Below are positions 14,769 to 21,560 of a stretch of 64,000 nucleotides of DNA, piece by piece. This DNA comes from Candidatus Endomicrobiellum devescovinae (GTDB taxonomy: Bacteria; Elusimicrobiota; Endomicrobiia; Endomicrobiales; Endomicrobiaceae), in contig JAIRYK010000022.1 in assembly GCA_031267795.1 (NCBI GenBank), forward strand, positions 1 to 64,000. Direction: 5' to 3'. The notes under the pieces are model-generated. The model made no database searches. It worked only from the letters and a program-made list of their open reading frames with translations, and was not told the DNA's origin. Position 1 is the stretch's first letter. Each line of letters opens with the position of its first letter. The translations under genes and the position numbers were made by a program.

Positions 14769-15545
14769 TCAATTGAGTATAATAGCTTTTTTAAGTTCAG
14801 ACGCATAATTTGCTAGTTTTACAGCCGCATTAACTTTATATTGTTCTATTATTTTTACAACAGCGCTGCCTATTATTACACCATCTGCACATTTTACAAT
14901 TTCTTTTGCCTGAGAAGTTTTTGAAATACCAAAACCAACAGCAACCGGAATATCTGTAACATTTTTTATTTCAGACATAATCGCTTTAATATCTGTAGTT
15001 ATCCTACTTCTTAGTCCTGTAACGCCAAGCGACGAAACAAGATATATAAATCCTTCAGCTTGTTTTGCTAAAATAGGTATTCTTTTTTTAGAAGTCGGAG
15101 CTATCAAAGTAATAATTGTTATGCTGTATTTTCTTGCAAAATGTTTAACTTCTTCCTGTTCTTCAAAAGGCATATCAGGAACAATTATTCCATCTAGTCC
15201 TACCTCTTTACATCTTTTAAAAAATTTCTCATAACCATAAAAGAACATAGGGTTTAAATATGTCATAAAAACTAAAGGAATATCAGATTTTTTTCTGACA
15301 TTGAGAACTATGCCAAAAATATCTTCTAAATTTATATTTTTAGATAATGCTCTTACCATAGCATTTTGTATTGTTTCCCCTTCTGCAACAGGATCTGAAA
15401 ACGGAATTCCTATTTCTATTAAATCAGCTCCGTTTAAAGCCATCGCTAAAATATACTCTTCAGTTTTAGAAATATCAGGATCGCCAGCAGTAAGATATGT
15501 TATTAAAGCTTTATTATTTTTAAATATTTTAGTTATTCTATTCAT
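14769..15545 (-). CDS. trpA: Tryptophan synthase alpha chain
   Basis: A 258-residue TIM-barrel enzyme that cleaves indole-3-glycerol phosphate to indole and glyceraldehyde-3-phosphate. The N-terminal signature LIEIGIPFSDP is present with catalytic E44. The position of the second catalytic acid (Asp60 in Salmonella) carries Glu in PVAEGETIQ; I believe some homologues do the same. It starts one base after trpB ends and is the last gene of the operon. Confidence 0.96.
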   Translation of the reverse strand: MNRITKIFKNNKALITYLTAGDPDISKTEEYILAMALNGADLIEIGIPFSDPVAEGETIQNAMVRALSKNINLEDIFGIVLNVRKKSDIPLVFMTYLNPMFFYGYEKFFKRCKEVGLDGIIVPDMPFEEQEEVKHFARKYSITIITLIAPTSKKRIPILAKQAEGFIYLVSSLGVTGLRSRITTDIKAIMSEIKNVTDIPVAVGFGISKTSQAKEIVKCADGVIIGSAVVKIIEQYKVNAAVKLANYASELKKAIILN

Positions 15546-15546
15546 T

Positions 15547-16722
15547 TTATATAACTCCTTTATACTCAGCTATCATCGCAACGTCCTTGTCTCCTCTGCC
15601 AGAAATACAAACAACTATTATTTCATCTTTTGACATTTTTGGAGCAAGCTGCATTGCATAATACATTGCATGAGCAGATTCTATTGCCGGAATAATTCCT
15701 TCAGTTTTTGATAGAAATTCAAAAGCTGCAACTGCTTCATCATCAGTGACGGGAATATATTCAGCTCTTTTTGTATCGTGCAGATAAGCATGCTCAGGAC
15801 CTATGCCTGGATAATCAAGACCTGCCGATATTGAATATACGGGAGCAATTTGCCCATTTTCCGTCTGGCAAAAATAAGATTTCATTCCGTGGAATATCCC
15901 GACTTTTCCTTTTGTAATAGTGGCAGCCGTTTCTAAAGTATCAACGCCTTTGCCCGCAGCTTCACAGCCTATAAGTTTAACTTCTTTATCATTTATAAAA
16001 TTATAAAAAGCGCCTATTGAGTTTGAACCGCCTCCAACGCAAGCAATAACAACAGACGGCAGTTTTGATTCTTTTTTAAACAACTGTTCTTTTATTTCTT
16101 TGCTTATAATGCTTTGGAAATCTCTTACAATGTGAGGATATGGATAAGGTCCCATTGCAGAACCTAAAACATAAAATGTATCGTCAATCCTGCTGCTCCA
16201 TTCTCTCATTGTTTGGCTTACAGCATCTTTTAAAGTTTTTGTGCCAGTTTCAACAGAATTGACTTTAGCACCCAATAGTTGCATTCTAAAAACATTTAAA
16301 GACTGTCGTTCAATATCTTCTCGCCCCATAAAAATTTCACATTCCATAGTAAGCAGTGCAGCAGCAGTAGCTGTTGCAACGCCATGCTGCCCGGCGCCTG
16401 TTTCTGCTATAACTCTTGTTTTGCCCATCTTTTTTGCAAGTAAAATCTGTCCTAAAACATTGTTTATTTTATGAGATCCTGTATGATTTAAATCTTCTCT
16501 TTTTAAATATATTTTCGCACCGCCAAGTTTTTCAGTAGCATTTTTAGCAAAATACAATCTTGACGGTCTGCCTGCATATTCATTAAGCAAACATTTAAGC
16601 TCATTATTAAACTGCTTGTCATTTTTAAAATGATTGTATGCCGTTTCCAATTCATTTACAGCATTCATAAGCGTTTCAGGTATATATTGACCACCGTATA
16701 TTCCAAATTTTTCTTTTGACAT
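15547..16722 (-). CDS. trpB: Tryptophan synthase beta chain
   Basis: A 391-residue PLP enzyme that condenses indole with serine to tryptophan. The PLP lysine is K85 in [15 protein letters not shown], and the phosphate-binding loop GGGSNS is present. The length is typical of the TrpB1 type that pairs with TrpA. An AGGAG site precedes the ATG. It lies between trpF and trpA. Confidence 0.97.
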
Positions 16723-16732
16723 AGAGTATCTC

Positions 16733-17347
16733 CTATTTCACATCAAAATGTTTTCTAACAATTTGTATTATTTCTTTTATCTTCTTTAAATCTTTTATTC
16801 CGTTTATTTCAACTCCGCTACTTAAATCTACACAATAAGGTTTTAATTCTGTTAATGCATTTTCTATATTGTCCTTATTCAAACCTCCAGCAAGAAAAAA
16901 TGGCTGTTTGTATTCTCTAATTAAATGCCAATCAAAAACTTTACCACAGCCTCCATATTCAAAATTGCTGTACGTATCAAAAAGAACAAAGTCCGCTTTT
17001 GTGTTAATATCGCATATCTTTTCTTTAACTCTGATAACTTTTATAATAGGCTGTTTTACTTTTTCTTTTAATTTAGATATATAAACTTCGTCTTCATCGC
17101 CGTGAAGCTGCACTAAATCAATAACACAATCTTTGCATAAGTTCAAAATATTATCCATATCTGCATTTGCAAATACCCCAACCGTTTGAATTTCTTTATT
17201 AAGCAAAGATTTCAACTTTGTAGCGATATTAAAATCTATTTTTCTCTTTTCCCCTGCAAAAACAAAACCTATATAATCAGGTCTTGCAATATTTACAAAA
17301 CTTATATCTTCTTCTCTTTTAAGACCACATATTTTTATTTTTGTCAT
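16733..17347 (-). CDS. trpF: Phosphoribosylanthranilate isomerase
   Basis: A 204-residue TIM-barrel isomerase of the tryptophan pathway. The family start [10 protein letters not shown] contains the catalytic cysteine; VQLHGDE, the aspartate of LFDT and the C-terminal DLSSGVE phosphate-binding motif are all present. It is separate from trpC, unlike the fused enterobacterial enzyme, and lies between trpC and trpB. Confidence 0.95.
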
Positions 17348-17357
17348 TTTTCTATTC

Positions 17358-18134
17358 CTAAGACATTAGCTCTTTAAGTTTTAAGTTAATATTGCCGCTT
17401 CTCATCAATTCTTCGCCAATTAAAACAGCATTAATATTGTTTGCTTTTAGCATGTCTATGTGTTCTTTTGTTTTAATTCCGCTTTCTGAAACAAAAATTT
17501 TATCATTAGGCACAAGCTTGCGAAGTCTTATAGTATTATTTAAATCCACTTTAAAATTTTTAAGATTTCTATTGTTTACTCCTATGATTTTAGCCCCAAT
17601 GTTTAATGCCATATCAAGTTCTTTTTCATTATGAACTTCAACAAGGCAAGATAGACCAATTACATTTGCTATTTCAAAAAAATCTTTTAAAACTGGATTG
17701 TCTAAAATAGAGCATATTAAAAGTATTGCGTCTGCCCCTATAATTTTAGATTCATATATCTGATAAGAGTCTATTATAAAATCCTTACGCAATACAGGAG
17801 CGGTAACAATATCTTTTATTTCTTTAAGATAATCTCTGTTTCCAAGAAAAAAGTCAGGCTCGGTAATAACAGAAATTGCAGCAGCTCCAGAGTTTTGATA
17901 TTCCATAGCTATTTCTTTATAATTAAAATTATCTGAAATTAGCCCTTTTGACGGAGACGCTTGCTTTATCTCGCAAATAAAGTTTATGCTCGGTTTTGAC
18001 AATGCTTCTTCAAATTTATAAGACAATTTTTCTGCTGTGTTTAATGCTTCTTTTTTTACTACATCAAAAGATTTTTTACTTTTCTCTTTATTTACTCTTA
18101 TTCTTGTGGCAGCAACTATTTTGTCTAAAATCAT
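17358..18134 (-). CDS. trpC: Indole-3-glycerol phosphate synthase
   Basis: A 258-residue TIM-barrel enzyme that closes the indole ring. Family motifs are visible in order: FICEIKQASPSKGLI with the active-site lysine, VLRKDFIIDSYQI, VEVHNEKE, IGVNNRNLK and VSESGI. A GAGG site precedes the ATG. The order trpD-trpC-trpF is preserved. Confidence 0.96.
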   Translation of the reverse strand: MILDKIVAATRIRVNKEKSKKSFDVVKKEALNTAEKLSYKFEEALSKPSINFICEIKQASPSKGLISDNFNYKEIAMEYQNSGAAAISVITEPDFFLGNRDYLKEIKDIVTAPVLRKDFIIDSYQIYESKIIGADAILLICSILDNPVLKDFFEIANVIGLSCLVEVHNEKELDMALNIGAKIIGVNNRNLKNFKVDLNNTIRLRKLVPNDKIFVSESGIKTKEHIDMLKANNINAVLIGEELMRSGNINLKLKELMS

Positions 18135-18143
18135 ATAAACCTC

Positions 18144-19157
18144 TCAATTAAAACTGTTGGACATTTTGATAAAGTCATTTAATTTGTTTAAAGCTTTTTT
18201 GCTGTCTATCATCTCTTGAGCAATTTTTATACACTCTCTTAGAGTTACGTCATTGTAAAACATATACAAACATACGGCGGAATTTAAAACGACAGTATCT
18301 CTCTTTGCTCCATGCTCGCCGTTTAACACGCTTAAGGCAATTTCTTTATTTTTTTCAGGAGATCCTCCTATAAGCTCAGATAATTTGCACCTTTTTAATC
18401 CAAACTGTTCAGGAGTAATAAAGAAACTGTTTATTTTGCCGTCATTTACTTCACAAACAGTTGTAGTATCAGACAAAGTAACTTCGTCAAGACCGTCATG
18501 TCCATGCACAACCATCGCTCTCTTTACGCCAAGGTTTGCAAGAACATTGGCTATAGGTTCAACAAGGTTCTCATCATAAACACCTATAAGCTCATAATTC
18601 GCTCTAGCAGGGTTTGCCAAAGGTCCTAAAATGTTAAATATTGTTCTTATACCTAGTTCTTTTCTAACTTTAGCAACATACTTCATTGACGAATGAAATG
18701 TCTGAGCCATTAAAAAACATATGCCTGTTTTTTCTAATACTTCTTCACACTGATTAGGAGTAAGCATTACGTTTACACCTAAAGCTTCAAAAATGTCCGC
18801 ACTACCACATTTGCTAGATACACTTCTGTTTCCGTGCTTTGCAACGGGAATTCCTGCAGCAGCAATTACCAAAGAAGATATTGACGAAATATTAAACGTT
18901 GCAAGTTCGTCCCCTCCTGTGCCTACAATATCAAGTACATCATATTTAGGGTTTAACTTTTGACATTTTTCTCTCATAACCATTGCGCAAGCTGTTATTT
19001 CTTCTATTGTTTCACCTTTAAGCCTTAACGCCGTTAGAAAAGATGCAATTTGTGCGTCGGTTGCGGCACCGTCCATTATCTCGCTCATAACTTGTTTTGT
19101 TTTATCTATTGTAAGATTTTGTTTGTTTACTATTTCGTATATTGATTCTGTTATCAT
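18144..19157 (-). CDS. trpD: Anthranilate phosphoribosyltransferase
   Basis: A 337-residue enzyme joining anthranilate to PRPP. The GTGGDE motif, KHGNRSVSS, and NILGPLANPARA identify the family. It is not fused to trpG; trpG is encoded separately just upstream. An AGAGG site precedes the ATG. Confidence 0.96.
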   Translation of the reverse strand: MITESIYEIVNKQNLTIDKTKQVMSEIMDGAATDAQIASFLTALRLKGETIEEITACAMVMREKCQKLNPKYDVLDIVGTGGDELATFNISSISSLVIAAAGIPVAKHGNRSVSSKCGSADIFEALGVNVMLTPNQCEEVLEKTGICFLMAQTFHSSMKYVAKVRKELGIRTIFNILGPLANPARANYELIGVYDENLVEPIANVLANLGVKRAMVVHGHDGLDEVTLSDTTTVCEVNDGKINSFFITPEQFGLKRCKLSELIGGSPEKNKEIALSVLNGEHGAKRDTVVLNSAVCLYMFYNDVTLRECIKIAQEMIDSKKALNKLNDFIKMSNSFN

Positions 19158-19165
19158 GTTTGCCT

Positions 19166-19744
19166 CTATTTAAAATTTTGTAACTTAAGAAAATTTTCAA
19201 TTATTGTTATTCCGTTTTTTGTAAGTATTGATTCAGGGTGAAACTGAACTCCATAAATATCAAAATCTTTATGTTTCACACCCATTGCCTGAGACTCTTC
19301 ATCTTCGGCTATTACAAGTAAGTCATCTGAAAAACTAGCTCTACTAGCAACAAGAGAATGGTATCTTGCAGCTGTAATAACAGGAGAAAGACCTTTAAAA
19401 ATAGGGCTGCCATTAGCAATGTGTATATTGCTTGTCTTGCCGGGCATCAACTTTTGCGCATATGTAATTTTTGCTCCGAAAACTTCGCATATAGCTTGAT
19501 GCCCTAAACAAACGCCAAGTATAGGAACCCTCTCTTTAAAATATTTTATTGCCTCTTCACATATACCAGCAGCGTTTGGTCTTCCGGGTCCTGGAGAAAT
19601 TATTAAATGTGTAAATTGCAAATTATCCATTTCCTTAACTGTCATTTCGTCATTCTTGACGACTCTAACATCTTTATTTATAGCTCCAACATATTGGTAG
19701 AGGTTATAAGAAAAACTATCATAATTATCTATAATCAAAATCAT
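19166..19744 (-). CDS. trpG: Anthranilate synthase component II (glutamine amidotransferase)
   Basis: A 192-residue class I glutamine amidotransferase that supplies ammonia to TrpE. The nucleophile motif GVCLGHQAI and the C-terminal FHPESI (His-Glu of the triad) are present, as are DNYDSF and ISPGPGRP. The ATG at 19744 overlaps the trpE stop (ATGA) and has GGAGG upstream; the longer frame into trpE is not used because trpG homologues begin MILIIDNYDSF. Confidence 0.96.
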   Translation of the reverse strand: MILIIDNYDSFSYNLYQYVGAINKDVRVVKNDEMTVKEMDNLQFTHLIISPGPGRPNAAGICEEAIKYFKERVPILGVCLGHQAICEVFGAKITYAQKLMPGKTSNIHIANGSPIFKGLSPVITAARYHSLVASRASFSDDLLVIAEDEESQAMGVKHKDFDIYGVQFHPESILTKNGITIIENFLKLQNFK

Positions 19745-21177
19745 AATTCCTCCGTTTGCGCCAAATTCAATGCATTTATAATTGCTTGAGCTTTTTGACA
19801 ACATTCGTTATATTCTTTTTCAGGATTGCTATCTGCAACGATACCAGCGCCTGATTGAACATAAACTTTTCCATTCTGAAGTTTTGCCATTCTTATTGCA
19901 ATACACATATCCATGTTTCCTGCAAAATCTATGTAACCTATTGCGCCACCATAAGTTCCGCGTTTATGCTTTTCAAGTTTATTTATAATTCCGCATGCAG
20001 TTTTTTTAGGTGCTCCAGACAAAGTTCCTGCCGGCAAAACTGCAGATAAAGCGTCTAAATGATCGTATCCTTTCTTTATCCTTGATTTAATTACAGAAGT
20101 TATGTGGCTAACATGCGACAACTTTAGAATTTTCATATGTTCAGTTACTACAACGGAGCCAAATTCACTTATTTTGCCTAAATCATTTCTTCCCAAATCT
20201 ACAAGCATATTATGCTCCGCAATTTCTTTTTCATCTTCAACATCATTTTCACCACGTCTGCATGTGCCGGCTAGAGCATAATTCGTTAATTCCCCATCTT
20301 TCAATGTAACAAGTGTTTCAGGAGAAGCACCTGCAATTTCAATATCTCCAAAATTTAAATAAAACATGTACGGCGATGGGTTTATAGTCCTTAATATTCT
20401 ATAAGTCTTGAGAAGACTGCCTTCAAAATCTGCTTCCGTTCTGTTTGATAGCACAGCTTGAAAAATATCGCCTTCAGAAATATGATGCCTTATCTTTCCA
20501 ACCATTATTTTAAATTCTTCTTTACTGTAAAGCATTTTAAAGTCTGATTTGAGTTTTGATTTATCATCTTTCTTTACTAATGTACTTTTTATAAGCTCTT
20601 CTACTTCTTTAATTTTTTTCTCTGTTTTCTTAAACTCATCTTCAAAATTTTCCACAGGAGTGTTTACTACAATAAAAATCTTTTGCTTTAAATGATCAAA
20701 AGCCACAACAGTATCAAAAAGCATAAGGTAAAAATCGTCAAAGCCATCATTGTTAGAATTTAAAAGATTTACAGATTTTTCGTTATATTTAAAAAAATCA
20801 TAAGAAAAATAACCGACAAAACCTCCTGTAAATAACGGCATATATTCAAGTCTGGGACTTTTATATTGAGAAATAATATTCCTCAACGATGTTACGGGAT
20901 CATTTGTAATTATTTCTTCATTTTTTTCGCCGTCTATAAAAATTTTATTGTCTATGCATCTAACTGTAAGTTTTGGATTGTATCCAATAAAAGAATACCT
21001 ACCCCAGCTACGACTGTTTCCGACGCTTTCTAATAAAAAACTCTTTTTGTTTTTCTCCATAAAATTCTTGACAACTTCTACAGACGTTTTAATATCTGCG
21101 AAAATCTCTTTACATACAGGAATCACGGTGTAATTGCCAAAATACTTTTTTGCTTCCTCTACTTGAGGTTTAATCAT
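19741..21177 (-). CDS. trpE: Anthranilate synthase component I
   Basis: A 478-residue chorismate-utilising enzyme, the first step of tryptophan synthesis. The LLES segment with downstream GRYSF near residues 48-62 is the usual tryptophan feedback site. The C-terminal catalytic domain has AGTCRRG, DLGRNDLG, LPAGTLSGAPK and SGAGIVADSNPE. The ATG at 21177 follows a GGGAG site. It is the first gene of the operon, directly behind a T-box leader, so expression is expected to rise when tRNA-Trp is uncharged. Confidence 0.97.
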   Translation of the reverse strand: MIKPQVEEAKKYFGNYTVIPVCKEIFADIKTSVEVVKNFMEKNKKSFLLESVGNSRSWGRYSFIGYNPKLTVRCIDNKIFIDGEKNEEIITNDPVTSLRNIISQYKSPRLEYMPLFTGGFVGYFSYDFFKYNEKSVNLLNSNNDGFDDFYLMLFDTVVAFDHLKQKIFIVVNTPVENFEDEFKKTEKKIKEVEELIKSTLVKKDDKSKLKSDFKMLYSKEEFKIMVGKIRHHISEGDIFQAVLSNRTEADFEGSLLKTYRILRTINPSPYMFYLNFGDIEIAGASPETLVTLKDGELTNYALAGTCRRGENDVEDEKEIAEHNMLVDLGRNDLGKISEFGSVVVTEHMKILKLSHVSHITSVIKSRIKKGYDHLDALSAVLPAGTLSGAPKKTACGIINKLEKHKRGTYGGAIGYIDFAGNMDMCIAIRMAKLQNGKVYVQSGAGIVADSNPEKEYNECCQKAQAIINALNLAQTEEL

Positions 21178-21204: not shown

Positions 21205-21525
21205 AAAAAAAACGTCCGTCCAAAGCATAAAATATGCCAAGGACGGACGTTAAAATTTGTCCGCGGTGCCACCTTGATTTATAGGCAAAGCAATAAAAAG
21301 CTAAACCTATACTCTTTTCAGAGCGCCAACACGCTCGTCGCAAGTAACGCCTGCGATGCGTCGCGGAATACTAGGGATTTATAACCCTTTTGACCGCACC
21401 CTCTGTGGTCCATTTGATAATCTGCGTTGTGCGGGAATCTCAGCTGCGCCCGCTCTCTGTAACTGCACAATTACCGTTATCTCCACATCAACGGTTTTGA
21501 GGGGAATACCCTCTATAGTCAATTT
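21205..21525 (-). ncRNA. Tryptophan-specific T-box leader of the trp operon
   Basis: The minus-strand leader carries the T-box core AAGGTGGCACCGCGGAC (21275-21259), a Stem I region with a CAGAGAGC motif, and a UGG triplet at 21412-21410 followed by ACC, as expected for a specifier codon for tryptophan. The bulge UGGC would pair with an NCCA end whose discriminator is G, as in bacterial tRNA-Trp. An 11-bp terminator (arms 21241-21251 and 21211-21221) ends in eight U residues (21212-21205). Charged tRNA should allow termination and uncharged tRNA-Trp should stabilise the antiterminator. The trpE ribosome site lies just after it. Confidence 0.9.
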
Positions 21526-21531
21526 GATATT

Positions 21532-21560
21532 AGTATAATACAAGTTATACTAAATGTCAA
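21532..21560 (-). promoter_or_regulatory. Strong promoter of the trp operon
   Basis: On the minus strand a consensus TTGACA (21560-21555) and TATACT (21537-21532) are separated by exactly 17 bases. Transcription would begin near 21525, immediately before the T-box leader, so control is expected at the level of attenuation rather than initiation. Confidence 0.85.

Follow-up and report, generated by a model that had tools for sequence, protein, structure and literature searches.

The window analysed here, i.e. the whole stretch of 64,000 nucleotides, carries on its minus strand the tryptophan operon trpEGDCFBA and, directly upstream of it at positions 21205–21560 (minus strand), a complete class I, that is transcription-terminating, T-box. 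The seven downstream genes were identified in the order in which an earlier note, made from the sequence alone, had placed them behind the leader: trpE, coding for anthranilate synthase I (19741–21177; TIGR00564, E 1.1e-142, 476 bits, below the cut-off of 518), trpG (19166–19804; TIGR00566), trpD (18144–19157; TIGR01245), trpC (17358–18134; NF001377), trpF (16733–17347; NF002300, E 1.4e-52, below its cut-off), trpB (15547–16722; TIGR00263) and trpA (14769–15545; TIGR00262), all on the minus strand and, except for trpE and trpF, with matches above the respective cut-offs. The host family is Endomicrobiaceae of the phylum Elusimicrobiota, the phylum supposed in the note; the family contains Endomicrobium proavitum (PMC4505116), represented here by the genome G303. 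A 16S gene was sought in the window's own genome and not found. Genomes in the window's genus are small, in keeping with the endosymbiont genus Endomicrobiellum of PMC11257099, and from this and from kinship we infer that the window's species is an endosymbiont.

Structure of the leader

All the elements listed in the earlier note—the promoter, the motif ACAGAGAGCGGG, UGG followed by ACC, AAGGTGGCACCGCGG, UGGC and a terminator with eight U residues—are present on the minus strand, to which all the coordinates given below refer. The promoter is of the sigma-70 type, TTGACA-17-TATACT (21532–21560), and was found by a consensus scan with 11 of 12 matches, a consensus match being no proof of function. 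Stem I (21400–21494), delimited by the alignment to the Rfam model RF00230 and by covariation, comprises the specifier loop together with parts that we take to be a K-turn at the base and a distal double T-loop (ACAGAGA / GCUGAGA); its motif ACAGAGAGCGGG occupies 21449–21460, a position obtained from the motif with the single bases counted by hand. The specifier codon UGG for tryptophan, followed by ACC, is located at 21410–21412 according to the same alignment and would pair with the anticodon CCA.

Stem I is followed by Stem II (21363–21397), likewise drawn from the RF00230 alignment and covariation, and by the Stem IIA/B pseudoknot (21338–21361), recognized in the sequence as the helix ACGC/GCGU plus the pairing UCGCA/UGCGA. 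An extra hairpin (21321–21336) stands between the pseudoknot and Stem III (21280–21311); a similar hairpin after the pseudoknot was read by eye in clostridial trp leaders. The T-box, or antiterminator, covers 21239–21275, as indicated by the RF00230 alignment, covariation and folding. Its core AAGGTGGCACCGCGG lies at 21261–21275, again positioned by motif with hand-counted single bases, and the UGGC bulge at 21268–21271 is the complement of the tRNA 3′ end GCCA, the discriminator G having been read by eye. The intrinsic terminator with eight U residues extends over 21205–21250. According to the folds and the pair counts, the antiterminator and the terminator are mutually exclusive, both of them using 21239–21250.

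Concerning the folding energies, the whole leader reaches −117.1 kcal/mol (z −5.7) and the terminator −26.6 kcal/mol (z −8.5), whereas the antiterminator alone gives −12.7 kcal/mol, which at z −1.4 is not significant. A simple terminator scan, the rule of which allows only loops of 3–8, did not list the terminator of the window.

Two further features were observed at the 5′ side. A perfect inverted repeat, TTAGTATAA-6-TTATACTAA, overlaps the promoter at 21530–21553; none was seen by eye in the upstream regions of five relatives. A hairpin immediately 5′ of Stem I (21499–21513) varies in sequence in the relatives while keeping its pairing. For the 36 nucleotides preceding Stem I, the folding energy is −6 kcal/mol or below in 11 of 22 leaders of group A, as opposed to 0 of the 12 leaders of group B that were tried (both groups are defined by the trees described below, group A including the window).

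Match to the T-box model

The model RF00230 matches the leader over its full length (model positions 1–219) at 21236–21500, with 82 bits and E 2.5e-18. The Rfam search proposed in the earlier note thus turned out in favour of a T-box, giving a match to the full model, in the alignment to which UGG stands in the specifier position. It should be noted that 82 bits is below the Rfam gathering score of 93 for this family, which is a curator's cut-off and not a biological trait; the default Rfam scan of the whole window, applying the gathering cut-off, was consequently empty. Nor is the window's leader alone in scoring so low: the two clostridial trpE leaders scored, from Acetobacterium and SZUA-448, also miss the cut-off with 82.4 and 83.3 bits. 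Five of the 14 control genomes match RF00230, only two of them passing the gathering cut-off.

A leader-peptide attenuator of the E. coli trp type would also have a terminator ahead of trpE; against such an attenuator stand the match to the full RF00230 model and the lack of any trp leader family among all Rfam matches up to E 10, so that it deserves practically no credence. Within the window's own genome, the RF00230 search yielded the window's leader and one chance match, with nothing else; the latter (G000:C10:40485–40567, 27 bits) was rejected, being located inside a uvrC-like frame (protein name assigned by eye).

Covariation among the relatives' leaders

The alignment used for the pair counts (A2) comprises 22 group A leaders, the shortened one of G312 and that of G318 having been left out, and the eroded leaders of G011 and G032 as well as the T-box-free G313 being absent. 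The structure was drawn from the row of the window, itself one of the 22. Double-sided changes were found at 26 of the 60 pairs (mean of shuffled alignments 15.3), the cells with such changes numbering 111 (shuffled mean 35.8), and for either value none of 500 shuffles was as high. The number of further pair types, on the other hand, does not exceed that in the shuffles, 439 of the 500 being as high. The drawn structure pairs in 94.6% of the cells, in comparison with 34–51% when the partners are slid by 1–3 columns, part of this gap being expected from a structure drawn from one row.

The changes on both sides affect four of the five pairs of the pseudoknot, four of the six pairs of the extra hairpin, all six pairs of Stem III and, in a separate count for the terminator, eight of its 15 pairs. 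The four basal pairs of Stem II are paired in 100% of the cells. The weak spots are the three pairs at the tip of Stem II (75.8%) and the outermost pseudoknot pair, which, being paired in 40.9% of the cells, is unsupported. The identity of the leader as a T-box, claimed in the earlier note, is therefore borne out by covariation in addition to the model match.

Tryptophan specificity and the proposed control of the operon

The specifier UGG is invariant in all 22 leaders of A2. A text search for UGG with ACC or CCC directly behind it finds a match in 21/21 leaders of group A, in 13/13 of group B and in 45/52 of the named leaders, i.e. those from the named comparison loci. A search with a loosened tRNA-Trp pattern showed that the window's own genome carries a tRNA-Trp with the anticodon CCA; this tRNA (L174) has, as read by eye, the discriminator G and no encoded CCA, and it fits the UGGC bulge, in agreement with the specificity and the discriminator fit that the note had put forward. 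In four genomes (G025, G031, G299 and G319) the bulge reads UGGU, a fit with a G-U pair. The amino acid of the specifier also agrees with the trp genes found downstream. Taken together, the leader can be regarded, with high confidence, as a class I (transcriptional) T-box riboswitch specific for tRNA-Trp.

Its predicted mode of action follows the mechanism already known for such elements. The anticodon CCA of an uncharged tRNA-Trp would pair with the specifier UGG, the elbow of the tRNA would dock on the distal loops of Stem I and the free GCCA at the 3′ end would pair with the UGGC bulge; the bound tRNA would thereby stabilise the weak antiterminator (−12.7 kcal/mol) against the strong terminator (−26.6 kcal/mol), and the operon would be read through when tryptophan is short. 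We infer on these grounds that the T-box controls trpEGDCFBA. As far as protein regulators are concerned, neither TrpR (PF01371) nor TRAP (PF02081) gave a match at E ≤ 0.001 in the 76 genomes of the family, whereas in the controls PF01371 matched in both E. coli and B. subtilis and PF02081 in B. subtilis; this result, covering these two regulators, fits the T-box as the trp regulator.

Occurrence in the Elusimicrobiota

The search of 340 genomes of the phylum with RF00230 gave matches at E ≤ 0.001 in 42 of them, consisting of 39 of the 76 Endomicrobiaceae genomes, two from the family f18 and one (G035) taken as chance; the filters were stricter in this search and six candidates were scored for each genome, which means that weak T-boxes may have been missed. 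The match rejected as chance, of 25.5 bits (G035:C100), overlaps a glycosyltransferase-like frame at its 3′ end (name by eye). Outside the Endomicrobiaceae, credible T-boxes are thus present in only two of the 264 Elusimicrobiota genomes searched, both before thrS; these two, L073 and L075 of the family f18, have a UGGA bulge and a specifier read by eye as ACC (Thr). The earlier note had regarded the T-box as an unusual occurrence, which holds in that it lies outside the usual phyla, but it is not a single odd case, T-boxes being spread family-wide (39/76 genomes).

TrpE was found in 40 of the 76 genomes of the family, 37 of which possess a Trp T-box, situated before trpE in 35 genomes, before trpF in G324 and, in G328, before a gene for DAHP synthase behind which trpE lies. 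The TrpE-containing genomes with no T-box match are G313, G011 and G032; in G313, no T-box was found upstream of trpE and another frame ends just before this gene. Two T-box genomes of the family are not among these 37, namely G318, whose trpE is truncated where its contig ends, and G294, described below. Of the 41 genomes of the window's genus, many being incomplete, 11 contain TrpE.

Several loci of the family deserve a separate description. In G324 (L067, L176) the Trp T-box directly precedes trpFBA and the trpE gene is located on another contig, behind the apparent end of a DAHP synthase gene, whereas in G328 (L072) the trpE behind the DAHP synthase gene reads in two frames. The genome G294 (L077; reverse complement, 1386–1619) carries a T-box whose specifier appears to be UGG, situated upstream of a gene for tryptophanase / tyrosine phenol-lyase that is broken; this is an odd target for Trp specificity, and TrpE gave no match in the genome. 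In the genus g32, a T-box stands before the gene for the large subunit of acetolactate synthase (L009–L012, L063 and L016), the protein having been scanned for L009 and the others named by eye. The specifiers, all read by eye, are GUC in L009, L010 and L012, GUA in L011 and L063—all of these for Val—and UUC in L016, the T-box of which has a shortened Stem I. Four leaders of the same genus (L071, L076, L079 and L072) contain a hairpin-like insertion of approximately 25 nucleotides in Stem I just before the specifier. The trp T-box L069 (G312) is much shortened, seemingly without the usual region of Stem II and the pseudoknot.

Relation to known T-boxes

The closest known system is the class I Trp T-box before trpE in Clostridia, e.g. 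in Acetobacterium wieringae (L080/L081), which shares with the window's leader the order of the elements, the UGG specifier, the hairpin after the pseudoknot, the T-box core, the terminator and the operon order, but differs in the host phylum and in much of the sequence of Stem III and the terminator. In Dehalococcoides (Chloroflexi), according to passages of PMC2494555, trpE and trpB-like genes are preceded by T-boxes, which are, by description, similar in being tied to tryptophan genes outside the Firmicutes but come from a different phylum. The leuA T-boxes of Geobacter and Pelobacter (passages of PMC2494555; for Geobacter also of PMC3766115) are, again by description, comparable as isolated occurrences outside the usual phyla, their specificity being for Leu and not for Trp.

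According to passages of PMC3766115, T-boxes are confined to Firmicutes, Actinobacteria, Chloroflexi and Thermus/Deinococcus, plus Geobacter. The string 'elusimicrob' is absent from the main texts of PMC12452182 and of the TBDB paper (PMC7778990), and the main text of PMC11257099, which deals with Endomicrobiellum, contains neither 'riboswitch' nor a word starting with 'trp'; a T-box paper that does name Elusimicrobium (passages of PMC9413887) ties it to HisR. No report of a T-box in the Elusimicrobiota was found in the open-access literature, although the TBDB entries may list one. The T-box thus seems previously unreported for the phylum. While the mechanism is already known, the phylum, the repeated transfer of the cassette and the erosion of the switch appear to be new. 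The cultured member of the family, E. proavitum, carries a Trp T-box (L068) that looks intact in its sequence, which makes the system testable.

Evolutionary origin of the operon and its leader

The named comparison loci are the best 80 of 592 confirmed ones, chosen as the best matches to the family's own TrpE; the sampling is therefore biased, with other phyla nearly absent (72 of the 80 carry the label Bacillota, the remaining 8 another label or none) and with near relatives of the window possibly omitted. Matches from a search of plasmids were below 60% identity, several of them being PabB, and were kept out of the trees. These best 80 of 592 loci show a TrpE identity of 49–55%, other Elusimicrobiota one of 33–43%. 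The T-box core was found near trpE in 63 of the 80 within 800 nucleotides upstream and in 65 within 1.5 kb, some of the loci having less upstream DNA than that.

Two TrpE trees were calculated. The larger one, with 134 rows, covers 35 of the 40 TrpE-containing genomes of the family (leaving out G311, G313, G314, G324 and G328), 19 other Elusimicrobiota and the 80 named loci; the careful one, with 73 rows, covers 21 family members, 17 other Elusimicrobiota and 35 named loci (17 chosen and 18 random), leaving out the long branches L048 and L058. Group A, which has 22 rows in the larger tree including the window, adjoins Acetobacterium, whereas group B, with 12 rows there, is located among other Clostridia, next to SZUA-448 (99/95 in the careful tree). 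The TrpE of the other Elusimicrobiota is positioned apart from the family, on a long branch of the careful tree. Forcing all the family rows into one clade costs 109 log units and is rejected (p 2.1e-5).

The concatenated TrpG, TrpD, TrpC and TrpB tree, restricted to the 63 of 92 loci with all four genes (five of group A, two of group B, four of other Elusimicrobiota and 52 named), joins group A with Acetobacterium (100) and group B with [Clostridium] viride (98), the node uniting the two being unsupported (4); one family clade costs 167 and is likewise rejected (p 2.2e-34). The neighbour of group B accordingly differs between the gene sets, being SZUA-448 for TrpE and [Clostridium] viride for TrpGDCB. 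In the tree of the leaders, calculated for 86 of 98 of them (L068 and 11 named loci failed the start pattern or the length limits), A and B again form separate groups (99/88 and 99/95), the former with Acetobacterium, two gut Clostridia and Desulfosporosinus nitroreducens (96/84) and the latter with L115 (81/88).

All three trees place the family's operons among Clostridia, and the earlier suggestion that the switch may have come by transfer with the operon is upheld in this respect, with probably two or more transfers, one clade of the family having been rejected. We consider that the switch and the operon came together to the Endomicrobiaceae from Clostridia, a direction suggested by the nesting of the family among Clostridia and by the T-boxes being common there. 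Vertical descent from an ancestor of the Elusimicrobiota, with the T-box and the operon lost in other lineages, could appeal to the two f18 genomes of the same phylum with a T-box (before thrS, with ACC as the specifier read by eye) and to the same gene order in four of five other Elusimicrobiota loci; it is very improbable in view of the rarity of credible T-boxes outside the family (2/264 genomes), the separate position of the TrpE of other Elusimicrobiota and the rejection of all Elusimicrobiota TrpE as one clade, which costs 105 log units (AU test, p 8.4e-4). The gene order itself is no guide to the origin, since it is alike in groups A and B, in Acetobacterium and in those four other Elusimicrobiota loci.

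As the operons of the family fall into two separate lineages within the Clostridia, at least two acquisitions of the operon and its switch are likely. It may be objected that a single acquisition by the ancestor of the family, followed by local gene replacement, could have produced two apparent groups; local replacement does happen, as illustrated by G301, where TrpE alone leaves its group while the leader and the other genes stay, but one family clade is rejected for both TrpE and TrpGDCB and the leader tree is split, too, which renders the single acquisition rather unlikely. In G301 (L161), TrpE is only 53% like that of the window, in comparison with 57–83% for TrpG to TrpA; it pairs with Acetobacterium itself at 91/84 in the careful tree, but at 34 in the larger one, and it seems that trpE alone has been replaced under the native leader. 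A family in which the leader and the enzymes share one story of transfer, apparently twice, bears on the two scenarios outlined in passages of PMC3766115 for the spread of T-boxes, i.e. the rise in Firmicutes with subsequent transfer or the presence in a common ancestor.

Erosion of the leader in the window's genus

Two species of the window's genus, represented by G011 (L034) and G032 (L037), contain remnants of the T-box before open trpE frames. In blastn, they match the window's leader with E 1.6e-16 (G011) and 1.0e-12 (G032), and neither gives an RF00230 match at E ≤ 0.01. As aligned, the specifier UGG is altered in both of them. The leader of G032 has lost the UGGN bulge; that of G011, the Stem I of which is cut by the contig start, has kept UGGC, while the conserved letters surrounding this motif are lost. 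The terminator is still strong in G032 (−24.3 kcal/mol) and weakened in G011 (−13.0 kcal/mol). These are signs that the switch erodes in some members of the genus.

The erosion observed in G011 and G032, both of the window's genus, could be taken to mean that the window's leader, too, is a decayed T-box, unresponsive and retained merely as a terminator; all the functional elements are, however, intact in it and the tRNA matches, so that such a decay is very improbable. As a tentative and rather doubtful scenario, the cassette would have moved from Clostridia at least twice and the RNA would then degrade in some of the descendants that live in flagellates, with the enzyme genes retained, tryptophan production being either uncoupled from the bacterium's own need, as in host provisioning, or shut off. 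Together, such remnants in relatives within the window's genus represent a natural series on the loss of regulation during symbiosis.
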